Positions 2,913 to 13,517 of a DNA stretch of 64,000 nucleotides are shown in pieces; position 1 is the stretch's first letter, and every line of letters starts with the position of its first letter. Below the pieces are notes generated by a model. That model ran no database searches. It was not told the DNA's origin and worked only from the letters and a program-made list of their open reading frames with translations. The DNA comes from Pantoea sp. Ep11b (GTDB lineage: Bacteria > Pseudomonadota > Gammaproteobacteria > Enterobacterales > Enterobacteriaceae). A program made the translations under genes and the position numbers. The stretch spans positions 1,240,001 to 1,304,000 of the forward strand of contig NZ_CP160631.1 of NCBI RefSeq assembly GCF_040783975.1. Reading direction: 5' to 3'.

Positions 2913-4016
2913 ATGAGTGGCAGTCAGACCCTCGTGGTCAAGTTGGGTACCAGCGTTCTTACCGGCGGCTCCCGCCGGTTAAATCGGGCGCACATGGTGG
3001 AACTGGTTCGTCAGTGTGCGCAGCAGCACGCCGCAGGCCACCGCATTGTGATCGTCACCTCTGGCGCGATGGCCGCCGGACGCGAACATCTGGGCTACCC
3101 CGAACTGCCACCGACCATCGCCTCAAAGCAGCTGCTGGCTGCGGTGGGGCAGAGCCGTCTCATTCAGCTGTGGGAACAGCTGTTTTCCATTTACGGCATC
3201 CATATTGGTCAGATGCTGCTGACCCGCGCCGACATGGAAGATCGCGAACGTTTCCTGAATGCCCGCGACACGCTGCGTGCGCTGCTGGATAACCACATTG
3301 TGCCGGTCATCAATGAGAATGACGCCGTCGCTACGGCGGAGATCAAAGTCGGCGACAACGACAACCTTTCCGCGCTGGCCGCGATGCTGGGCGGAGCCGA
3401 CAAGCTGCTGCTGCTGACCGATCAGCAGGGGCTGTTTACCGCCGATCCGCGCAATAATCCCGACGCGGAGCTGATCAGCGACGTCCATATTATCGATGAT
3501 GCGCTGCGCGCTCTGGCGGGTGACAGCGTCTCCGGGCTGGGGACCGGCGGCATGTCCACCAAGCTTCAGGCGGCCGATGTCGCCTGCCGTGCGGGTATCG
3601 ATGTGATCATCGCCTCCGGCAGCCGCAGCGGCGTGATCAGCGATGTGATCGACGGCAAACCGGTCGGCACACGCTTTCACGCGCAGCAGTCGCCGCTGGA
3701 GAATCGCAAGCGCTGGATCTTTGGTGCGCCACCGGCCGGTGAACTCACCGTCGATGACGGGGCGCTGGCGGCCATTATCGAACGCGGCAGCTCGCTGCTG
3801 CCCAAGGGCATCCGCGCTATCCAGGGAAACTTCTCGCGCGGTGAGGTGATCCGTATCCGTAGCCTGCAGGGGCGCGATATCGCCCATGGCGTGTCGCGCT
3901 ACAACAGCGACGCTATGCGGATGATCGCCGGTCACCACAGCCAGCAGATCAGTGAAATCCTGGGATATGAATATGGCCCGGTGGCGGTTCACCGCGACGA
4001 TATGATCGTCAGTTAA
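2913..4016 (+). CDS. proB: Glutamate 5-kinase ProB
   Basis: First enzyme of proline biosynthesis: ATP-dependent phosphorylation of glutamate to gamma-glutamyl phosphate, feedback-inhibited by proline. The 367 residues match E. coli. The amino-acid-kinase domain starts [12 protein letters not shown] and contains the nucleotide-binding segment [23 protein letters not shown] split over its loop. A PUA domain occupies roughly residues 275-355. The start ATG follows GGCAGGAAAT. It is followed after 10 bp by proA, with AAGGAG between, so the two form the proBA operon. A second, out-of-frame open stretch from 2798 is a shadow. Confidence 0.97.
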
Positions 4017-4026
4017 GGAGCGGATA

Positions 4027-5280
4027 ATGCTTGAAGAGATGGGAAAAGCGGCACGCGCCGCAGCTTACACCGTGGCCGATCTGTCAGCGGCCGAAAAGAA
4101 TCAGGTGCTGATGACGATTGCCGACCGCCTGGAGGCGGAGAGCGCCGATATTCTGGCGGCCAATGAGCTGGATTTAGCCGATGCGCGTCAGAACGGCATG
4201 AGTGCCGCGCTGCTGGATCGGCTGACGCTCAACCCGCAGCGGCTCAGCAGCATCGCCAGCGATGTCCGTCAGGTCTGCCAGCTGGCCGATCCGGTCGGCC
4301 AGTTAATGGATGGTGGCCTGCTCGACAGCGGGCTGCGGATTGAACGCCGTCGTGTGCCGCTGGGCGTGATCGCGGTGATTTACGAGGCGCGCCCCAACGT
4401 CACGATCGATGTCGCCAGCCTCTGCCTGAAAACCGGCAATGCCGCCATTCTGCGCGGCGGAAAAGAGACCTGGCGCACCAATGCGGCCACGGTGCGCGTC
4501 ATCCAGAATGCACTGCAGCAGCACGGTTTGCCGACGGCCATTATCCAGGCGATTGAAAACCCCGACCGCGAGCTGGTGAATCAGCTGCTGAAGCTGGATC
4601 GCTACGTCGATATGCTGATTCCGCGCGGCGGAGCCGGTCTGCACAAACTGTGCCGGGAAAATTCGACCATTCCGGTGATCACCGGCGGCATCGGCGTCTG
4701 TCACATCTATATCGATGAGACGATGGAGATCGAACCGGCACTTGATCTGATCGTCAACGCCAAAAAACAGCGTCCCAGCGCCTGTAACTCCCTGGAGACG
4801 CTGCTGGTGGATCAGGCGATGGCCGATCGTTTCCTGCCCGCCTTCAGCGCGCGTATGGCGCAGGAAGGGATCGCGCTGCACGCCGACAGCAATGTGCTGG
4901 CGCAGCTGCAGCAGGGGCCAGCCACGGTCACGCAGGTGACTCCTGAACAGTACAACGATGAGTGGCTGTCGCTGGATCTTAACGTCCGACTGGTGGCGGA
5001 TATGGATGAGGCGATCGAGCATATTCGCACCCACGGCACGCAGCACTCTGATGCCATTCTGACCCGCAACACCCGCAACGCCGCGCGCTTTGTGCGGCAG
5101 GTCGACTCATCGGCAGTCTATGTGAACGCCAGCACCCGCTTTACCGACGGCGGGCAGTTTGGACTGGGCGCAGAAGTGGCGGTCAGCACACAGAAGCTGC
5201 ATGCCCGCGGGCCGATGGGGTTAGAGGCGCTGACCACCTATAAATGGATAGCCTGGGGCGACGACACGCTCCGATCCTGA
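4027..5280 (+). CDS. proA: Gamma-glutamyl phosphate reductase ProA
   Basis: Second proline enzyme: NADPH-dependent reduction of gamma-glutamyl phosphate to glutamate-5-semialdehyde, probably channelled from ProB. The product is 417 residues, as in E. coli. It belongs to the aldehyde dehydrogenase superfamily, with the catalytic cysteine in [11 protein letters not shown] (about residue 253) and the C-terminal family signature [24 protein letters not shown]. Translation starts from ATG with AAGGAG seven to eight bases upstream. A strong terminator closes the operon. In E. coli a tRNA-Thr (thrW) follows here; none was found. Confidence 0.97.
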
Positions 5281-5300
5281 CCACACTAATTTTTAACAAA

Positions 5301-5332
5301 ACGGGAGTCTTTCACAGACTCCCGTTTTTTTT
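5301..5332 (+). terminator. Rho-independent terminator of proBA
   Basis: ACGGGAGTCT and AGACTCCCGT form a 10-bp perfect stem around a 5-nt loop, followed by eight T. Confidence 0.93.
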
Positions 5333-5640
5333 AGCGCATTTTTTCGGGCCAGTGAAAGATAGAGTTTTTTGTGAATCAGATCTCTTTTCGCGCTGGCTTT
5401 GTCACCGCTGTCCGCTATGCTGGCTGAATTTTACGCAATTTTTTACGGAACATTCCTGAAAGCCCAGGCTCTATGCGGCCTGAGGCAATATTTTTTGTTC
5501 AGCGGCAGGCTGAAGCGGATAATGATAATCAGAAATGCTTGATAAAGCGGTTAGGTAGTAAATGAGCGGTAATATAAAATGAACTGGTAGCAATAATGAA
5601 AATAACATCCAGTATCTCTTCTATGGCTGATTATTAACTA
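5333..5640. other. Intergenic region at the left edge of the phage-derived island
   Basis: About 310 bp without a supported gene, and AT-rich towards the repressor start. An AGCGGTAA motif at 5565-5572 recurs at 6440-6447 on the other side of the repressor gene, making both candidate operators. No tRNA, integrase attachment site or direct repeat marking an insertion boundary was recognised. Confidence 0.4.
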
Positions 5641-6372
5641 ATGGTTAAAAAAGAAAGTACAAGACAGGCTTTCACTGCCAGGCTGATAGCGGCCTGTGAG
5701 AGTGCCGGCATTGTCGGACATGGACGAAACAAACAGGTTGCCAGGGCCCTGCAGCAGCAAGGCTGTAAGATTTCAACGCCAGGAGTGTGGAAGTGGTTTA
5801 ATGCGCAGTCCGTCCCCGATGGCGGTAATCTGCTGGCGCTCAGTCAGCTGCTGGGCGTCAGGGTAGAGTGGCTGCAATACGGAATGGAGCAGCCCGCAGA
5901 ACCGGTCACGCTGAACACCTTCACTGCCCACAAAAGTGTGTATCGGGTCGACAGTCTCGACATCGGGCAGCGCAGCGCGGCGGGCTTGCCCGCGCGCGAT
6001 GAGTTTGTAGAGACCATCCAGGCCATTGAGTATGGTCTGGATGAGGCGCGGGTGCTGTTTAATGGCCGTCCGGCAGAGAACATCCGGCTTATCGCTATCA
6101 ACAGCGACTCAATGGCGGACACCTTTGCGCCACGCGATCAGCTGTTTGTGGACATCAGCGTGCGGATGTTCGACGGCGACGGCATCTATATCTTTACGCT
6201 TGACGAGCAGCTCTACCTCAAACGCTTACAGCTGCAGCATAAGAAAATTGCTGTAATTTCAGATAATAAACGTTATGAAACCTGGTATCTGAATCATGAG
6301 GATGTCACCAGCCTGAAGGTGCTGGCGAAAGTGATCATGAGCCAGGCACGTCACTATCAAATCCTCGGCTAA
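5641..6372 (+). CDS. Phage-type repressor with S24 (LexA/CI-like) peptidase domain
   Basis: A 243-residue transcriptional repressor of the phage CI/C2 type. Residues about 8-80 form the DNA-binding domain (GRNKQVARALQQQGCKISTPGVWKWFN split across a helix-turn-helix). Residues about 100-243 form the S24 peptidase domain. A candidate scissile Ala114-Gly115 sits in SAAGLPARDEF. The nucleophile is Ser157 (INSDSMAD) and the general base Lys194 (LYLKRL); their 37-residue spacing equals that of LexA Ser119/Lys156. All parts for RecA-stimulated self-cleavage therefore appear present, so the genes downstream may be SOS-inducible. The start ATG has only a weak Shine-Dalgarno. It precedes a lysis cassette in the same direction, with no cro-like gene in between. 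Confidence 0.87.
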   Translation: MVKKESTRQAFTARLIAACESAGIVGHGRNKQVARALQQQGCKISTPGVWKWFNAQSVPDGGNLLALSQLLGVRVEWLQYGMEQPAEPVTLNTFTAHKSVYRVDSLDIGQRSAAGLPARDEFVETIQAIEYGLDEARVLFNGRPAENIRLIAINSDSMADTFAPRDQLFVDISVRMFDGDGIYIFTLDEQLYLKRLQLQHKKIAVISDNKRYETWYLNHEDVTSLKVLAKVIMSQARHYQILG

Positions 6373-6792
6373 GCCCGTTTTTGTCGCTTTCCTCGGGGGG
6401 CTGCAAAAAAATAATCGGCTTAAATTCATAAATTTAACCAGCGGTAAATAAAAAATTAACCAACAGTGTTTGATAATGCATAAGAACCTGTTAATAATTT
6501 GAACATGGACGAACGAAGCAGTTCTTTCAGGGATGAGCCGCTCTTAAACAATTGAGGCGCTGCACAAGCGCGAATCATACCACCCAAAAGTCAGTGAACT
6601 TTGGGATGGGGTGGATGCGCAAAATGCAGCGTCGTCAGATGCCGTTATTTCCCTTCGCTTACTTTCCACCTGGCTGCTTACGCAGCCGGGCGGCAGGCGT
6701 GCGATCGCAATAAACGACATTCGGGCCCGTTCGGATCACCGAAAGCTCGCGCCTGCCACCCCATCGCCAAAGACTCATTCACAGGAGGAGTT
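6373..6792. other. Repressor-lysis intergenic region
   Basis: About 420 bp. The first 130 bp are AT-rich and carry a second AGCGGTAA motif (6440-6447), so promoter and operator elements are likely here. Further on the sequence turns GC-rich with local dyads but no recognisable gene. The frame of the next gene stays open upstream to about 6601, but its strong ribosome-binding site places the start at 6793. Confidence 0.35.
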
Positions 6793-7071
6793 ATGGCGAT
6801 AATTCACTATGGCAAAAGCGTTTTTGTGGGCAACGCACGTACTCGCCGCCATCGGCGGCGCCAACCCCTCAGCAGCCTGAAACAGAGCATCGATCAGGCG
6901 CTGAACTTCCCGACTGAAACACTACCCCTGCGACGTGCAGAGCAAATCTGCCAGCGTCAGGTTACTCCGCGTGTTGAACGCGCAATCACCGCTCCCCGTA
7001 TTACCAGTCAGGAAACACCCAGTTTCGACAACTGCTGCCTGCCGCACGTCCATCTCTACGCCGTGGGCTGA
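6793..7071 (+). CDS. Hypothetical basic protein in the lysis island
   Basis: A 92-residue product not recognised as any family. It is arginine-rich near the N-terminus (ARTRRHRRRQPLSSLKQSI) and has two adjacent cysteines near the C-terminus (FDNCCLPH). The start is chosen for its near-ideal AGGAGGAG six to eight bases upstream of ATG. It lies between the repressor and the endolysin, where lambdoid phages place a late antiterminator or regulator, and its basic character would fit nucleic-acid binding; both points are inference only. Confidence 0.55.
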   Translation: MAIIHYGKSVFVGNARTRRHRRRQPLSSLKQSIDQALNFPTETLPLRRAEQICQRQVTPRVERAITAPRITSQETPSFDNCCLPHVHLYAVG

Positions 7072-7275
7072 CAGGCAGAGAAAAGGGCGGTTTCCGTTCC
7101 GATCAAAGCTCCGCGAACTCCAGCTCCGGCTGGACGCAATCTGCTGAAATACTGTTCAGTTTTGCTGGATGGTCAGCAGAGCATTCTGCTGCGCGGCGCA
7201 GGGTAATGATCAGCGTGCGTTATGTATTTCTTTTCACAGGGCTGTATGGAATTCACCCGTTATTGAGGAGTTGTT

Positions 7276-7743
7276 ATGAGCCAGATCATCGCAGTACTGA
7301 ATTTTGAAGAGGGATATGTGGACACGCCTTATCTCGACACGCTGGGCTTCCCCACCGTGGCGGGCGGTATCCGCATCGGACCGAAAGGCGCGTCGCTGAG
7401 TAACTACGTCTTTCGCGTGCCACGACGGGTCGGCGACGTCTGGAAGCAGTGCATTCTTGAAAACAAAATTCAGGAGATGCAGGGCAGGGAGCCGCTGCGT
7501 AACGCGCTGGCAAAGTGCAACGACGCCCGGACCGACGTCCTGCTCAGCATGGCTTACCAGCTTGGCGTTGAGGGGGTAATGCAGTTCAAAAACATGCTCA
7601 GCGCCATCGCCGCAGAGCAGTTTAATGAGGCGGCCGACGCGATGATGAACAGCCTCTGGGCGCGTCAGACGCCGGGCCGCGCCAGGCGTCACGCGGAGAT
7701 GATGCGCAGCGGAACCTATGCGGTTTACAGGGGGTTGCTATGA
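7276..7743 (+). CDS. Phage endolysin, GH24 (T4-type) lysozyme
   Basis: A 155-residue muramidase predicted to cut the glycan strands of peptidoglycan. The GH24 active-site pattern is visible near the N-terminus: Glu12-Gly13 (NFEEGY), Asp21 (PYLDTLGF) and Thr27 (PTVAGG), corresponding to T4 lysozyme Glu11, Asp20 and Thr26. The usual TVGIG turn reads TVAGG, a small deviation worth noting. There is no signal peptide or N-terminal anchor, so it needs the holin for access to the wall. The start ATG follows GAGGAG. Its stop overlaps the start of the holin gene (ATGA), indicating translational coupling. Confidence 0.88.
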   Translation: MSQIIAVLNFEEGYVDTPYLDTLGFPTVAGGIRIGPKGASLSNYVFRVPRRVGDVWKQCILENKIQEMQGREPLRNALAKCNDARTDVLLSMAYQLGVEGVMQFKNMLSAIAAEQFNEAADAMMNSLWARQTPGRARRHAEMMRSGTYAVYRGLL

Positions 7744-8087
7744 GATGGCTCATGTTCCTCGTCGCCGTATTAACGGCAATCATCATTCTGCTGCTGCTGC
7801 AGCGCTTCACCACCCTGCAGTTTGTCTCTCATGCCCGCCTCTTGTTTAAAACCTGGTCTGTCTGGCTGGCGTCACTCGGCTCGATGCTCAGCGCCTGGGC
7901 ACAGTCCTTTCCTGCCGCCGCCGTCGATGCCTGGAGCGTTCTGCCGGAAGATGTGAAAGCGATTCTGCCGCACAACTACCTGGGGCTGGTGGGCGCGTTC
8001 ATGGTGGCGATGGGGGTGATTGCCCAGTTTGTCCGGCAGAAAAATCTGCTTAACGCGAAGGATCAACCCGGAGGCGCGAAATCATGA
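7740..8087 (+). CDS. Putative holin
   Basis: A 115-residue membrane protein: one strongly hydrophobic helix at residues 4-20 (MFLVAVLTAIIILLLL), a second moderately hydrophobic stretch around 40-55, and a helix near 83-98 (LGLVGAFMVAMGVIAQF), with a charged C-terminal tail. That profile, its size and its place directly after the endolysin with ATGA overlap fit a holin, which forms inner-membrane lesions that release the endolysin. Holins are too diverse for a firm family call from sequence alone. It also overlaps the next gene by 4 bp. Confidence 0.75.
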   Translation: MRWLMFLVAVLTAIIILLLLQRFTTLQFVSHARLLFKTWSVWLASLGSMLSAWAQSFPAAAVDAWSVLPEDVKAILPHNYLGLVGAFMVAMGVIAQFVRQKNLLNAKDQPGGAKS

Positions 8088-8377
8088 CGCTGATTACTTC
8101 TCTGCTGGGCGGCAGCTGGCACTGGCTTGCGGCGCTGGCTGGCATCGTCGCGGCGCTGGGTGCCAGCTATTTCGGCGGCAAAAAAGTCGGAAAAGTGCAG
8201 CAAAAAGCACGATCTGACGTCGATAACGCGCGTCAGGAGGCGTCCCGCGTTACGGCGGTGGCACAACAGCAACAACAGCATCGCGAGGAGGCTAACCGTG
8301 TGGCGACCGACAATAACAGCCTTGATGACGCTGCTGCTCGCGACAAGCTGCAGCAGTCGAAATACCACAAACCCTGA
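8084..8377 (+). CDS. Inner-membrane spanin subunit (Rz-like)
   Basis: A 97-residue protein with one N-terminal transmembrane helix (about residues 11-30) followed by a polar, glutamine- and alanine-rich periplasmic segment predicted to form a coiled coil (residues about 40-85). This is the architecture of Rz i-spanins, which fuse inner and outer membranes in the last step of phage lysis. It overlaps the holin by 4 bp, and an out-of-frame lipoprotein gene is embedded at its 3' end, the classic nested Rz/Rz1 arrangement. Function is assigned from architecture and context. Confidence 0.78.
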   Translation: MTLITSLLGGSWHWLAALAGIVAALGASYFGGKKVGKVQQKARSDVDNARQEASRVTAVAQQQQQHREEANRVATDNNSLDDAAARDKLQQSKYHKP

Positions 8378-8534
8378 GCCAGTGGCGATCACCGACTCTG
8401 CCTGTGTGCTTTTTTCCCCTCTTTATACCTACGGCGATGATGCGCAAAAGATGGACATCCGGACGGTGCGCGCCATCAACACCCACAACGACATGTGGGA
8501 CACCCTTTGCGGCCATCCGGCCGCGGCAAAGTAG
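8298..8534 (+). CDS. Outer-membrane spanin lipoprotein (Rz1-like)
   Basis: Starts at GTG 8298, chosen because GAGGAGG lies about nine bases upstream and because it gives a proper lipoprotein signal (hydrophobic stretch then lipobox LATSC). It begins inside the i-spanin gene in another frame and continues 157 bp past it. The 78-residue precursor would be lipidated at Cys18. The mature part contains ACVLFSPLYTYGDDAQKMD and ends with two further cysteine-containing segments, resembling small Rz1-type proteins of enterobacterial prophages. It would pair with the preceding i-spanin. Confidence 0.75.
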   Translation: MWRPTITALMTLLLATSCSSRNTTNPEPVAITDSACVLFSPLYTYGDDAQKMDIRTVRAINTHNDMWDTLCGHPAAAK

Positions 8535-8581
8535 TGCGCTGATAACCGGCGCACTATCTCAATGATCCTGAGGAGGATTCT

Positions 8582-10327
8582 ATGATCGAAGTTAACTCTT
8601 TTGCTGAACTGCGTACCACAGTCCCACCGAAATCAGGTGAAGTGGCGAGCCTGAAACGCTATTACGACAAAGACTCCAGCTTCCGCGGCGGCGCTGACTT
8701 TGTGGGATTCCTCAGCACCACGCCGCTGAAAGATGATGGCGGTACGGTGGCAGTGGGTAACGGTTTTTACTGGAAGCGCACCATCAACGATCCTGCCGAA
8801 GTGAATATCCTGCACTTTGGTGCGAAGGGGGATGGCGTTACCGATGATACCGATGCCTTTAAACGGATGCTGGCATGGACCCAGAGTTACAACACCTATG
8901 CCAAAGCGATCCCGGTGCGTTTTCCGGGCGGCCGTTTCCTGATCTCACCGATCGATCTCACCAACACAGAGCTGCCGTTTTTTGGTCTGATTGGGGATGA
9001 CATCGAACAGGGCTCGTCGCCGCGCACCACCATCGTCTCCGACAAGAGCGATAACCCGGTGTTTAAGGTGATGGCGCGTAAAATCGCCATTAAAGGCATC
9101 GCCTGGCACGGGCAGGCCAGTGCCGATATCGCCCTGAAATCCACCGTGAGTCCTGAGCAGTGCAGCAACAAACAGCCGTTTTTTGAAAATACAATTACCG
9201 GCGGCCAGATCGTCAGCCTCTTCTGCTTTAAAGCGCAGAGTACGGGGGGCACGGTCTTTAAGCTGCAGGATACGCTCGACAGTAAGTTCGATCAGATCTA
9301 CACCTCCAGCACCTTTTCCCGGGTGTTCGATGTGGGCTGGTCAAACGCACCGAAGGGTAACTGGGATCACTCAACGGCTATCGAGTTGTGTAATGCCAAT
9401 TTCCAGTCGGGCTACGGCGATGCCACGCTCTATATGCCGCGCGTGACCCAGGGGATCATGCGTAACGTCTGGATCGAGCATACGGCGAACCCGGGCGATC
9501 TGTCGGACGGGGGCTGGACCATCGATACGCTCAACATTGAGGATTGTGTAACGCCGCTCAATCTCAACAATGCCCGCGTAGTGATGCGTCACATTAACCT
9601 GCAGGCCGGTGCGAAAATCACCAATGATGTGGCCGGCAACAAATGGTTATCCACCTTTGAATATGGCTATCGCCGGGATGAGAACTACGGCAGTTTCCTG
9701 ACCGGTTCGCTGCGCGCTGGCTATTACAGCGGCTACAAGGTGGTGAACAACACCGATACCGATAACTGGTATCGGCTGGGGCAGCTCTATTTCCCGGCGC
9801 CTAATCAGCAATGGGTGATGGAGCTGATCGGGAAAGCGGATGCCACCACGCCGTCCGGCACCGCCGGTTCACCAGTCAATGTGCCCGGCACCGGTAAAAC
9901 CCTGATCAACCTGCAGCGACTGGAGACGGTCTGGGCCGATGCTTACCACATGGGACAACCTTCCGTGCTGGATATTCGCTATGGCCGGGTCGGCACCACC
10001 TATGCCGTCGTGTGGGTCAAGCTGAAAGCCAACAGCGGCGAAACCATGTTCAACCTGAAAACCACCGGTCCGACGCGTTTCGATACCGGTGCCTGCTCGC
10101 TGTTCCAGGCTGATATGTCGGTGGTTACGGATATCACCAAACTCAGTAACCTGAAACCCGCAGCACGCTTCGGCATGCATAACGGGCTGGCAGGTGTCGG
10201 GGCGAATGAAAAAGGGGTTGTCACGCTGGCCACCGCAGCGGGTACACCGACCAACAAGACCGCACCAACCGGTTTTGTGCTGATCAATATCAACGGCGTT
10301 GACCGCAAGGTCCCTTACTACGATTGA
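8582..10327 (+). CDS. Tailspike-like polysaccharide depolymerase
   Basis: A 581-residue protein. The N-terminal 70 residues resemble the adaptor segment of phage tailspikes (FRGGADFVGFL, then DDGGTVAVGNGFYWKR). This is followed by the pectate-lyase-3 entry motif ILHFGAKGDGVTDDTDAF at about residue 78, which begins a right-handed parallel beta-helix, and a glycine/threonine-rich C-terminal region. Such proteins trim capsule, O-antigen or exopolysaccharide. There is no signal peptide. The start ATG has GAGGAGG upstream. It directly follows the lysis cassette and ends at a strong terminator, so it is probably released by lysis rather than carried on a virion encoded here. The substrate cannot be told from sequence. 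Confidence 0.82.
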   Translation: MIEVNSFAELRTTVPPKSGEVASLKRYYDKDSSFRGGADFVGFLSTTPLKDDGGTVAVGNGFYWKRTINDPAEVNILHFGAKGDGVTDDTDAFKRMLAWTQSYNTYAKAIPVRFPGGRFLISPIDLTNTELPFFGLIGDDIEQGSSPRTTIVSDKSDNPVFKVMARKIAIKGIAWHGQASADIALKSTVSPEQCSNKQPFFENTITGGQIVSLFCFKAQSTGGTVFKLQDTLDSKFDQIYTSSTFSRVFDVGWSNAPKGNWDHSTAIELCNANFQSGYGDATLYMPRVTQGIMRNVWIEHTANPGDLSDGGWTIDTLNIEDCVTPLNLNNARVVMRHINLQAGAKITNDVAGNKWLSTFEYGYRRDENYGSFLTGSLRAGYYSGYKVVNNTDTDNWYRLGQLYFPAPNQQWVMELIGKADATTPSGTAGSPVNVPGTGKTLINLQRLETVWADAYHMGQPSVLDIRYGRVGTTYAVVWVKLKANSGETMFNLKTTGPTRFDTGACSLFQADMSVVTDITKLSNLKPAARFGMHNGLAGVGANEKGVVTLATAAGTPTNKTAPTGFVLININGVDRKVPYYD

Positions 10328-10342
10328 TGATCGGCATTTTTT

Positions 10343-10369
10343 GGGCGAGGCTCCGGCCTCGCCCTTTTT
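10343..10369 (+). terminator. Terminator of the lysis/depolymerase unit
   Basis: GGGCGAGGC/GCCTCGCCC 9-bp stem with a 4-nt loop and six T. Confidence 0.92.
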
Positions 10370-10468
10370 TGATCTGGCGGGCTGATCGTGTTTAATCTGT
10401 CAGGCAACGACAAAGCCGATATTGTCCTGCTTAATGCAGTTGATACGCGTGATAAATAAGGAGAGGTC

Positions 10469-10891
10469 ATGAAAAAAGGGTTTATGGCGGCCGCACTGGC
10501 GATGGTTCCGATGTTTGTGAGTGCGGCAACGCCGCCTTATCTGTTTGATTTTATACAGAACAGGCAGACAGGTCAGGCTTATCAGCGGCTGATCGCCGGG
10601 CATAATTTTCCTGCCTGGGTGAAGCAGGGCGGCACCAGTACGCCTGCTGAAACCCTGACGCTGAAGGGCGTGACCTGGCAGGTGCTCTCCGGCTGTAAAC
10701 CGCACAACTGCCCGGCGCAGTCTGTTGCCATTCTTTACTCACCGGAAAAAGGAGAGATCCATGGCGTTTACTCCGATTACGATCAGACGCACGATCGCCA
10801 GACGCTGACCTGGCTTAACCTCGATCCTCTGAACGATGCCGGGCTGCGAAATATCCTGTTCAGAGAGCTGAATGGCGGGCCCGCTGAGTAA
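10469..10891 (+). CDS. ivy: Ivy-family inhibitor of vertebrate (C-type) lysozyme
   Basis: A 140-residue periplasmic protein with a signal peptide (MKKGFMAAALAMVPMFVSA). The Ivy inhibitory loop appears as SGCKPHNCPAQS, with two cysteines flanking KPHN; in Ivy the central histidine plugs the lysozyme active site. It therefore protects against host C-type lysozyme and perhaps against endogenous lytic transglycosylases. ATG follows AAGGAG. It sits beyond the terminator of the lysis island, so it is a separate transcription unit, although it lies next to a lysozyme gene. Confidence 0.88.
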   Translation: MKKGFMAAALAMVPMFVSAATPPYLFDFIQNRQTGQAYQRLIAGHNFPAWVKQGGTSTPAETLTLKGVTWQVLSGCKPHNCPAQSVAILYSPEKGEIHGVYSDYDQTHDRQTLTWLNLDPLNDAGLRNILFRELNGGPAE

Positions 10892-11026
10892 GCTTTTTGC
10901 CTGCGGAGCCGCGCAGAATAAGGGCTCCGCAACACAATCCGCGCCAGCACTTCTTGCGGGCAGGGCGATTTGAGTTTAATTTCAAATGCAGGTTGCGTCC
11001 CCGGAAGAAGTATGGCTTAATGAATC

Positions 11027-11189
11027 GTCGGTTTGATTAACAGACACTATCAAAGCTAAGTAACCAAAGCAGTTCTCATCTCTAAGTTTGTCGCGAGACA
11101 TCCCTTCTTTTTGAGTCTTCTCTTACGTTCTGATTAAAATCTGTTCTCAGGCCATTACGCCGGAAGGCTCGATAATTAAGGATTTAAGC
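11027..11189 (+). promoter_or_regulatory. Long cold-shock leader (5' UTR) with cold box
   Basis: The 160 bp before the cold-shock gene contain TTGATTAACAGACACTATCA near 11031, which resembles the cold box of cspA-family leaders, followed by a long untranslated stretch. Such leaders act as RNA thermosensors that favour translation in the cold. The transcript start near 11027 is inferred from alignment in mind with cspA, not measured. Confidence 0.65.
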
Positions 11190-11402
11190 ATGTCTAACAA
11201 AATTCGCGGTACCGTTAAATGGTTTAACGCAGAGAAAGGCTTCGGTTTCATCTCTCCTCAGGACGGCAGCAAAGATGTATTCGTACACTTCTCTGCAATC
11301 CAGGGCACCGATTTCCGTTCATTAGACGAAGGTCAGCAAGTTGAATTCACAGTAGAAAATGGCGCTAAAGGCCCGGCTGCTGCGAACGTTGTTGGTCTCT
11401 AA
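11190..11402 (+). CDS. Cold-shock protein, CspA family
   Basis: A 70-residue single-domain OB-fold RNA chaperone. Both nucleic-acid-binding motifs are intact: RNP1 KGFGFI and RNP2 VFVHFSAI. It is near-identical in layout to E. coli CspA/B/E/G; which paralogue it matches best cannot be settled by eye. The long leader and the small downstream Zn-ribbon frame resemble the cold-inducible cspG/cspB loci, arguing for cold induction rather than the constitutive cspE/cspC type. The start is ATG after a long UTR ending GGATTTAAGC. Confidence 0.95.
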
Positions 11403-11411
11403 GGACTGAAG

Positions 11412-11576
11412 ATTACTTTTAAGTGTCCTCACTGTAATGGCTCACAGTTTCGTACATCACATTTTGATGTGACAAGAGCCAATCCGCATGGAGCGAAATG
11501 CATTTTCTGCAAATCTGTTGTTGTTCAGGTGAACGCAACGAGGATTGCAACTCAGAGCGCGCCTCGTGCTCTCTGA
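11412..11576 (+). CDS. YmcF-like cold-shock small protein (non-AUG start)
   Basis: A 54-codon frame begins 9 bp after the cold-shock gene stop, with no ATG or GTG near its 5' end. ATT at 11412 is proposed as start because AAGGA lies six bases upstream; CTG at 11406 is an alternative. The product has a four-cysteine Zn-ribbon: FKCPHCNGSQFRTSHFDV followed by ANPHGAKCIFCKS. This matches my recollection of E. coli YmcF and YnfQ, small proteins downstream of cold-shock genes that initiate at non-AUG codons. It is probably co-transcribed with the csp gene, ahead of the shared terminator. Confidence 0.75.
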   Translation: MTFKCPHCNGSQFRTSHFDVTRANPHGAKCIFCKSVVVQVNATRIATQSAPRAL

Positions 11577-11623
11577 TAAAGGCTTGTGAGCTTTATAGCG
11601 TTGTTGCATTTACAGTAATAAAA

Positions 11624-11646
11624 GGCTGCCCCGGGCAGCCTTTTTT
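11624..11646 (+). terminator. Terminator of the cold-shock unit
   Basis: GGCTGCC/GGCAGCC stem with a 3-nt loop, A-run before and six T after. Confidence 0.9.
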
Positions 11647-11787
11647 GTTTCTGCTGTTTCTCTTCTTCAACCTCAACCCTGTCAACCTATCCTGCCTGAA
11701 GATCCTGCTTTCCCGACAAAGAAACGCGCTATGCCGTCCTGTCGGCTCTGCACAGCAACAGGCCTGCCGCAGCAGGCCGTGGTAAGA

Positions 11788-13365
11788 TTAAGGCTGTACG
11801 GGCTGCAGTGAGAGCTTGACGGTATTGAACACGCTCATCGCCTGCGCCATCCGTTCAGCCTGATCCTGCAGCGCCTGGGAGGCGGCGGACGCTTCCTGTA
11901 CCAGCGCGGCGTTCTGCTGCGTCACCGCTTCCATCTGCGTAATCGCCTGATTGATCTCATTGATGCCGCTGCTCTGTTCGCTGCTGGCAATGGTGATTTC
12001 GCTCATGATGTTCGCCACGCTCTGCACGCTGTTCACCACGTCGCCAATGGTGGAACCCGCATGGGTCACCAGTTTACTGCCTTCATCGACTTTCGCGACA
12101 GAGTCTTCAATCAGCACTTTGATCTCTTTCGCCGCAGAGGCCGAGCGCTGCGCCAGATTGCGCACCTCACTGGCCACCACCGCAAAGCCACGACCCTGTT
12201 CGCCCGCGCGCGCCGCTTCGACCGCCGCGTTCAGAGACAGAATGTTCGTCTGGAAAGCGATGGAGTCGATGACGCTGATGATATCGACGATTTTACGAGA
12301 GGAGAGGGCGATCGCTTCCATTTTCTCGATCACCTGCTCCATTACGACGCCCCCTTCGCGTGCCACGGTCGAGGTGGTTGCAACCAACTGGTTAGCTTCG
12401 CGGGCATTGTCGGCGTTATGTTTCACGGTAGAGGTCATCTGCTCCATTGCTGAGGCGGTCTCTTCCAGCGAACTGGCCTGCTGTTCGGTGCGGGTCGAAA
12501 GATCGAGGTTACCGCTGGAGATCTGATTGGATGCGACGGCGATGGTATCTGAGCCGGTGCGCACTTCGGTCACAATCGACAGCAGATTGTCATTCATCCG
12601 CTGCAGCGCCTGCATCAGCACGCCGGTTTCGTCGCGTGAGGTGACCTTGATCTGAGAACTCAGGTCACCTGAGGCAACGCGCTCTGCGACATCAACGGCG
12701 CTCACCAGCGGACGGACAATCGAGCGGGTCAGCAGATAGCCGAGCAGGATAGAAGCCAGAATCGCCAGGCCCGAGAAGAGCAGCGTGATAAAGATGGCGG
12801 ACTGACCATTTTCCACAATGCCCTGACCTTCACTGCGCAGCTGCGAATCCTGAGAGTTAGCGAAATTTACCGCATCCTGCAGAAACTTATTCTGGGTGGC
12901 GGTCATCGATTTGAGCACATAGACGCTGGCCGCATCAAAATTCCCCGACTTCACCAGCGCGATCAGCTCCGCCTTCACTTTCTCAAAGGCCAGAGACGAC
13001 GCCAGCAGGTTGGCGATCTTTTTCTTGCCGATCGGCGTGACCTGAATCTCTTCGATCTTTTTCATGGCCATATTGGTTCGCCGGGTGGCTTCATCCAGCT
13101 GACCATAACGTTTCACGTTCATTTCCGGTCGTGTGGTGTCGATCACCATGCCGCGCAGGTATTTGATCTGATCGTTGACGCCATCGCGCACATCAAATGC
13201 CAGTCGTACTTTTACATAACGATCGTCAACGATCGACGCGATCGCCGTATTAATATTGTTAATCCTGGTAATGGATGTCACACCAATCACTATCAGTAAC
13301 GTCACAATAATACCGAAGGCTGCAGCAAGCCGCATTCCCACCTTCATATTCCTGATGCTGACCAT
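11788..13365 (-). CDS. Methyl-accepting chemotaxis protein
   Basis: A 525-residue transmembrane chemoreceptor. TM1 covers about residues 10-32, a periplasmic four-helix-bundle sensor (4HB_MCP-like) about 33-190, TM2 about 191-211, then a HAMP domain (TRSIVRPLVSAVDVAERVASGDL) and a cytoplasmic signalling domain. The highly conserved hairpin tip (IDSIAFQTNILSLNAAVEAARAG, split) that binds CheA/CheW is intact. The C-terminus lacks a Tar/Tsr-like NWETF tether, so CheR/CheB docking would be indirect. The ligand is unknown. A sigma-28 promoter lies about 125 bp upstream, consistent with flagellar class 3 control, and cheV is 500 bp away on the same strand. Confidence 0.95.
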   Translation of the reverse strand: MVSIRNMKVGMRLAAAFGIIVTLLIVIGVTSITRINNINTAIASIVDDRYVKVRLAFDVRDGVNDQIKYLRGMVIDTTRPEMNVKRYGQLDEATRRTNMAMKKIEEIQVTPIGKKKIANLLASSLAFEKVKAELIALVKSGNFDAASVYVLKSMTATQNKFLQDAVNFANSQDSQLRSEGQGIVENGQSAIFITLLFSGLAILASILLGYLLTRSIVRPLVSAVDVAERVASGDLSSQIKVTSRDETGVLMQALQRMNDNLLSIVTEVRTGSDTIAVASNQISSGNLDLSTRTEQQASSLEETASAMEQMTSTVKHNADNAREANQLVATTSTVAREGGVVMEQVIEKMEAIALSSRKIVDIISVIDSIAFQTNILSLNAAVEAARAGEQGRGFAVVASEVRNLAQRSASAAKEIKVLIEDSVAKVDEGSKLVTHAGSTIGDVVNSVQSVANIMSEITIASSEQSSGINEINQAITQMEAVTQQNAALVQEASAASQALQDQAERMAQAMSVFNTVKLSLQPVQP

Positions 13366-13490
13366 GTTCTCTTCCCCGCTTTATTATTAATCAATTTGTT
13401 AGCCACATTCAGAGCTTATGCTGTTGTGCGCAGTGCCGCGTTGAGGTCTGTGGTCACTGCCACAGGCAAAATGTGATCCCGCGCATACTG

Positions 13491-13517
13491 TTATCGGAGC
13501 ACGCCGTTGTACCTTTA
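13491..13517 (-). promoter_or_regulatory. Sigma-28 (FliA) promoter of the MCP gene
   Basis: On the minus strand TAAAGGTA-N11-TCCGATAA matches the consensus TAAAGTTT-N11-GCCGATAA with exact spacing and two -35 plus one -10 mismatches. Confidence 0.78.

Follow-up and report, generated by a model that had tools for sequence, protein, structure and literature searches.

The island that follows proBA in the 4.03-Mb genome of Pantoea sp. Ep11b is probably a domesticated lambda-type lysis unit, similar in operation to type 10 secretion, that carries its own cargo, an exopolysaccharide (EPS) depolymerase. We analyzed it in a window of 64,000 nucleotides (contig NZ_CP160631.1, positions 1,240,001 to 1,304,000; G000:C1:1240001-1304000); positions below are those of the window, and L and G numbers denote loci and genomes of the comparison. 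Domestication itself is close to certain: the unit is genus-wide, sits at one site, is under purifying selection and keeps its control elements, as expected from an earlier note that had favored a domesticated unit over a decaying prophage arm. The likeness to type 10 secretion, also raised there, stands as far as anatomy goes, with a holin, an endolysin and spanins outside a phage and a linked cargo. From the sequence we infer that the cargo would be released by lysis and that its target would be the slime of the producer itself.

All genes lie on the forward strand, in the order proBA, repressor, N, endolysin, holin, Rz, Rz1, depolymerase, terminator. The elements of the island are:

5634–5648, unstranded: operator-like palindrome TTAAC-N5-GTTAA over the repressor start codon
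5641–6372, + strand: CI-like repressor with helix-turn-helix and S24 domains (Pfam S24, 3.9e-16; PHROG repressor, 4.5e-34)
6434–6470, unstranded: two operator-like half-conserved repeats (6434–6448 and 6456–6470) upstream of and touching P_N
6470–6498, + strand: P_N, sigma-70-like promoter TTGATA-17-AATAAT
6539–6571, + strand: nut site, with boxA at 6539–6550 and a boxB hairpin at 6557–6571
6599–6772, + strand: structured N leader, in which arm 6599–6614 pairs with arm 6756–6772 (fold z −5.4)
6793–7071, + strand: N-type antitermination protein with an arginine-rich N-terminus (Pfam N_peptide, 2.7e-22; PHROG N-like, 7e-12)
7276–7743, + strand: endolysin of the T4-lysozyme type (Pfam Phage_lysozyme, 7.7e-5)
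7740–8087, + strand: holin (PHROG 1356 holin, 3.1e-18; two hydrophobic stretches at a cut of 1.6)
8084–8377, + strand: Rz, inner-membrane spanin (PHROG 1026, 1.4e-12)
8298–8534, + strand: Rz1, outer-membrane lipoprotein spanin with a GTG start (PHROG 1275, 7.1e-16)
8582–10327, + strand: tailspike-like EPS depolymerase without export signal or head domain (PHROG 4250, 3e-172; PDB 6tgf, WceF, 4.9e-105)
10343–10364, + strand: intrinsic terminator closing the island, a 9-pair stem with 8 G-C pairs followed by TTTTTT

The gene set read in the earlier note (S24 repressor, basic protein, endolysin, holin, spanins and depolymerase) is present in full with open frames, and the basic protein, there called unknown, is a lambda N-type antiterminator by its N_peptide match. 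The two 4-bp overlaps (ATGA) are present. Rz and Rz1 do overlap out of frame, but the supposed full nesting does not hold, as Rz1 extends beyond the end of Rz. The depolymerase gene starts 47 bp after Rz1 and encodes 581 amino acids. Its closing terminator is strong, as had been claimed; the region holds five terminator-like matches against 5.6 in shuffles, i.e. no excess. Residues of the lysis proteins are well kept: E12 and D21 of the endolysin in 52 of 53 loci each and T27 in 51 of 53, which we take to be catalytic from the roles of these residues in T4 lysozyme, and the lipobox Cys of Rz1 in 52/52. Integrase and virion genes, reported missing, were likewise not seen by eye among the open reading frames of 3000–13500, the part of the window scanned for them.

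To follow the island across the genus, we used the endolysin as a search query in 61 congeneric (Pantoea) genomes and then compared the surrounding stretches. The endolysin was matched in 54 genomes, and in all 54 one copy follows proA as part of a string in which repressor, N, holin and depolymerase keep their order. Such sharing of site and order is far above chance. Judged by length, the seven genes are whole in 45 of the 54 loci, or in 44 once L030, with a repressor split near its end, is set aside. The island also follows proA in G080, the only genome of its genus compared, and in Erwinia G366 (L156). Relatives of the enzyme at E values of 1e-10 or better were found in 10 of 295 family genomes, representing 6 of 154 genera.

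Seven Pantoea genomes lack the island. In two of them (1.4 and 2.4 Mb) proA was not matched; the other five contain proBA, after which no trace of island, nut or leader was found (one contig ends ~0.4 kb past proA). These five form one clade with G048 in a FastTree phylogeny of ProBA. G048 itself carries a modified island (L046), so loss is the simplest reading, and we consider it unlikely that the five never had the island. In L046 (3367–5710) the depolymerase has been swapped for an enzyme of ~650 codons that is 35% identical to it, preceded by a 76-codon frame with no Pfam match; this is a cargo swap at the same site. In L017 (G025), N and the endolysin are separated by an insertion of more than 1 kb that contains transposase-like sequence.

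Substitution patterns point the same way. Median dN/dS (nonsynonymous to synonymous rates, NG86 method; 51–54 sequences, pairs with dS of 0.1–1.2 that are not independent) was 0.060 for the repressor, 0.114 for N, 0.129 for the endolysin, 0.154 for the holin and 0.108 for the depolymerase, compared to 0.039 for proB and 0.088 for proA in the flank; the values for Rz (0.187) and Rz1 (0.273) are both distorted by the overlap of the two genes. Amino-acid distances of the island proteins track those of ProBA across 46 loci, with r from 0.76 (holin) to 0.94 (endolysin); the depolymerase reached 0.91, as opposed to at most 0.16 in 500 label permutations. Low dN/dS and distances that follow proBA together argue that the island genes are vertically inherited under purifying selection. 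This comparison of the proA-ivy interval, the check recommended in the earlier note, thus speaks against relaxed selection and against a sporadic remnant.

The control region is conserved at the level of single bases. The palindrome over the repressor start codon is exact in 51 of 52 loci, with one mismatch in the other. The repeat at 6434–6448 matches this palindrome with at most one mismatch in 52/52 loci, and the repeat at 6456–6470 was recognized by eye only. A regulon read from the operator was dropped: the exact palindrome occurs at 14 sites in the genome, 13 of them outside the repressor start, and seven share one repeated other centre. At up to two mismatches the window holds 20 matches versus 6.7 expected, so a relaxed match does not single out the island. 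P_N is the sole sigma-70-like match in 5250–10480, where shuffles average 3.4; since this count lies below that of shuffles, the evidence for P_N is its position and its conservation in the alignment, not its number. Downstream, boxA (from its second base) is kept in 46/46 aligned loci, 45 of which share an identical boxB. An N-family protein preceded by boxA and boxB constitutes a lambda-type N-nut pair.

Between boxB and N, the RNA is predicted to form a long stem in which the arm that follows boxB pairs with the arm near the N ribosome site. Across the alignment, 99.4% of cells in this stem are standard pairs, versus 40–64% when the arms are slid by 1–3 columns, and two pairs have changed on both sides. 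Codon 2 of N is GCG in 53/53 loci, as expected under constraint at the RNA level. The leader is similar to that of lambda N, which contains an RNase III stem, and has no match in Rfam. Each of the two arms could also pair elsewhere. Within 6599–6810, a local hairpin, the long stem and a start-codon hairpin that would hide the N start are mutually exclusive pairings. The leader itself may act as a regulatory switch.

Repressor, operators, P_N, boxA/boxB, structured leader, N, and the endolysin-holin-Rz-Rz1 series all have counterparts in lambda. In contrast to lambda, the island places repressor and N on the same strand and has no Cro, Q, replication or virion genes, and its lysis genes are followed by the depolymerase, whereas those of lambdoid phages are followed by packaging genes.

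How the repressor is relieved bears on the proposal in the earlier note that the island is under SOS control. The repressor of the window has the Ala-Gly cleavage site and the Ser-Lys dyad. Among the 54 repressors, however, the catalytic Lys is present in all 54 and the catalytic Ser in 50; of the cleavage-site residues, Gly is found in 46 and Ala in 20. The copies with Ala in place of Ser are those of P. ananatis, P. allii, P. stewartii and G080. With the cleavage-site Ala in 20 of 54 and Ser lost in four, selection at the proA site does not, judged by these residues, act to preserve self-cleavage. No LexA box with fewer than two mismatches occurs in 5201–10400, where all 31 LexA-box-like matches have two. 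SOS control thus appears doubtful, even though the window copy retains the residues for RecA-type cleavage.

If self-cleavage is not kept, another trigger is needed, and a phage could provide it. The island could be an abortive-infection or superinfection device in which an incoming phage relieves the repressor and causes early lysis, the stripping of slime being a side effect; its repressor, N and nut, all of phage type, could be responsive to antirepressors or N proteins of a phage. We regard this as unlikely. Matches to defence families are only two and weak (0.0027 and 0.007), and the explanation does not account for the enzyme being the common part of the Erwinia sites described below.

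The cargo is closely related to a known slime enzyme. WceF of P. stewartii, a stewartan glycosidase active on stewartan, comprises a Tat (twin-arginine translocation) signal (residues 1–28), a P22-like head (34–146), a neck (166–229) and a β-helix (236–514), according to PMC7949094. Residues 3–580 of the island enzyme align with WceF (PDB 6tgf) 169–732, so that neck, β-helix and C-terminal domains are all matched end to end. The island enzyme begins at the neck; unlike WceF, it lacks the Tat signal and the head, its N-terminus is not hydrophobic, and its gene is not in an EPS cluster. Without signal or head, its exit from the cell plausibly needs lysis.

Island-type enzymes were seen only in genomes that also have a WceF-like gene (54 of 54 Pantoea, 24 of 24 Erwinia), a class that we assigned by identity and frame length. 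The genome of the window encodes a 738-amino-acid WceF-type protein with a twin-arginine start among genes that look by eye like glycosyltransferase genes, and all 54 island-bearing Pantoea have a match of at least 65% to a WceF-type gene, split or broken in some (e.g. G030). Loss of EPS genes as the route to island loss was rejected because five proA-positive island-free Pantoea keep a WceF-like gene; the other two have a broken fragment and none, respectively. The short-class enzyme is found in 25 of 37 Erwinia genomes, at an island-type site in 24 (one broken) and only beside tail genes in G386. All 25 also have a WceF-like frame of 726–795 codons; of the remaining Erwinia, one has the WceF-like gene only and eleven have neither. 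A pooled Fisher test of the short enzyme against the WceF-like gene gave p = 5e-12, but the genomes are related, so the tie between the island enzyme and slime genes is suggestive only.

The Erwinia sites, read by tblastn of chosen genes in the 37 genomes and by eye in L108–L111, show that comparable units exist elsewhere. At the fli/cheV site, 16 genomes, and in addition G230 of g32, have a divergent repressor, Q (Pfam Phage_antitermQ, 2e-41), endolysin, holin, Rz, Rz1 and depolymerase; in L175 neither holin nor spanin was matched. At the ldcA site, six genomes have repressor, endolysin, holin and enzyme with no Rz match, one more also lacks the holin and one copy is broken. The fli-site repressor matches S24 weakly (0.006, below cut-off) and has no obvious Ser/Lys dyad, while ldcA-site repressors keep the dyad, with Ala-Gly in 5 of 7 aligned. 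No virion genes were seen by eye in L108–L111. In the depolymerase tree, the fli, ldcA and proA sites form one clade each (the lone L157 falls inside the proA clade) and together stand apart from tail-linked and phage copies with support of 0.96. The endolysin tree, at modest support, groups proA with prophage endolysins and fli and ldcA with each other. These different groupings suggest that the enzyme is the constant part and that lysis genes and regulators probably joined it on more than one occasion.

Four further Erwinia loci (L187–L190, beside pdxJ) carry a related depolymerase after Q; in L187 and L189 it lies between a lysozyme gene and a spanin-like frame, ahead of genes for a tail terminator and a DUF3383 protein. 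As in the island, the enzyme there belongs to one module with lysis genes and regulators (repressor, Q, holin, lysozyme); unlike in the island, tail genes follow and the lysozyme and holin are of other kinds. L187–L190 may represent a tailocin or prophage into which a slime enzyme is built. This module, with tail genes in the two loci read, is what speaks for a general lysis helper that frees a tailocin or prophage encoded elsewhere, with the enzyme as an accessory that opens the slime. We hold such a helper to be a little less probable still than an infection-triggered device, as no tail genes were seen by eye in the window stretch or in the fli and ldcA stretches read (L108–L111).

An old lambdoid prophage of which a single arm has survived by chance and is now decaying would explain why all parts are of phage type, N being best known from phages, why some copies are broken (L016, L018, L028, L051–L054) and why five genomes lost the island. 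It is nonetheless improbable. The island occupies one site in 54 of 61 genomes, with all genes whole in 44 and dN/dS of 0.06–0.27, and its nut site and operators are near-invariant. Where L030, L051, L053 and L054 are damaged, proB or proA is split as well, suggesting assembly error or genome decay. Paralogous endolysins occur at ten other places (L055–L064). Four of the six with listed neighbors (L055, L057, L058 and L063) belong to prophages, as shown by terminase and/or portal genes, and none of the nine scanned has a related depolymerase beside it. The island, with no integration or virion gene seen in 3000–13500, neither sporadic occurrence nor relaxed selection, does not behave like a prophage. 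Phage records matching the enzyme number 166 (30 among the matches listed), all below 60% identity. A phage-like element that has the enzyme close to lysis genes does exist, as the tail-linked copies demonstrate; gene order was not scanned in every phage record.

An IMG/VR scan returned two loci, one resembling phiEaP8 in length and enzyme position and the other (L192, UViG_2773858062_000006) a provirus call that includes proA and the island, which can thus be mistaken for viral sequence in such counts.

Least probable of all is a non-lytic, non-export role, with the enzyme intracellular or leaving by another route and the lysis genes remodeling the envelope: enzyme-only copies in Erwinia and the first description of type 10 secretion as non-lytic (PMC9527704) would fit it, but endolysin, holin and spanins are retained as a complete set, along with the catalytic and lipobox residues, and subsequent work on Yersinia describes both known systems as lytic (PMC10847048).

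Those two systems, Serratia marcescens ChiWXYZ (SmaLC) and Yersinia entomophaga YenLC, are the closest functional parallels to a domesticated release unit. In Yersinia the cargo proteins mostly lack export signals, and release is reported there to be lytic, to take place in a subpopulation and to be insensitive to SOS (PMC10847048, PMC9527704). Like them, the island combines a holin, an endolysin and a two-part spanin outside a phage and ties them to a cargo, with the depolymerase linked in 54/54 Pantoea loci and a swapped enzyme in one. It differs in that the cargo is an EPS depolymerase encoded in the same gene string and in that control is by a CI-like repressor, N and nut rather than by ChiR or RoeA. 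Titles and abstract openings of the open-licence literature gave no description of this locus.

Upstream of the island lies proBA; downstream are genes for an Ivy-type lysozyme inhibitor (10469–10891; matched in only some Pantoea stretches, at 55–94% identity), a csp gene with a cspA-type leader and a methyl-accepting chemotaxis protein gene. The window contains no tRNA. The only TerL match of the genome (G000:C1:1939536-1940063) is 0.69 Mb from the island; this separate large-terminase gene probably marks another prophage.

Several observations weigh against a lytic release unit built around the enzyme. A terminator that N would have to pass was not found, and L033 and L046 lack Rz/Rz1. In Erwinia, the enzyme is kept without lysis genes in some lineages: L181–L184, one of them E. 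piriflorinigrans, have Q and the enzyme only, with no repressor or lysis match, and enzyme-only copies occur at the ldcA site (3) and in L157. Persistence of the enzyme in the four fli-site genomes whose lysis genes are gone also counts in favor of the release-unit reading. Five Pantoea have a WceF-like gene (77–79%) and no island. Two phage enzymes, of 599 and 604 amino acids, share the short head-less form, and we therefore rejected the missing head as proof of domestication; within 4–5 kb of them no lysis annotation was found, many genes there being hypothetical. Head-less WceF constructs aggregated in vitro, according to PMC7949094.

A domesticated release unit of this composition could operate as follows. 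The CI-like repressor, bound to the operator over its own start and to the others at P_N, would keep the unit silent. Relief of repression, in many species probably not by RecA cleavage, would start P_N, and the RNA would carry the nut site and a leader whose folding may tune N translation. Loaded at nut, N would allow polymerase to continue through the genes for endolysin, holin, Rz, Rz1 and depolymerase. The enzyme, which like WceF is probably a trimer, would collect in the cytoplasm and be freed when the cell lyses, to cut stewartan/amylovoran-type slime, most likely of its own kind. We tentatively extend this model, at somewhat less than even odds, to a genus-wide circuit of altruistic lysis: a lambda-type switch free of virus and SOS, through which bursting cells would release a signal-less enzyme that thins the slime of their own community, with Erwinia having built equivalents elsewhere from Q and other repressors around a constant depolymerase.

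If this is true, a device that trades cell death for release belongs to the near-core genome of plant-colonizing Pantoea and Erwinia, genera known for their slime, and a lambda-type regulatory circuit has been retained for the benefit of the host alone. Type 10 secretion would extend from chitinases and toxins to control of the matrix and would gain a lambda-style switch of well-understood logic. Why and when single cells lyse for others would then become testable by single gene deletions.

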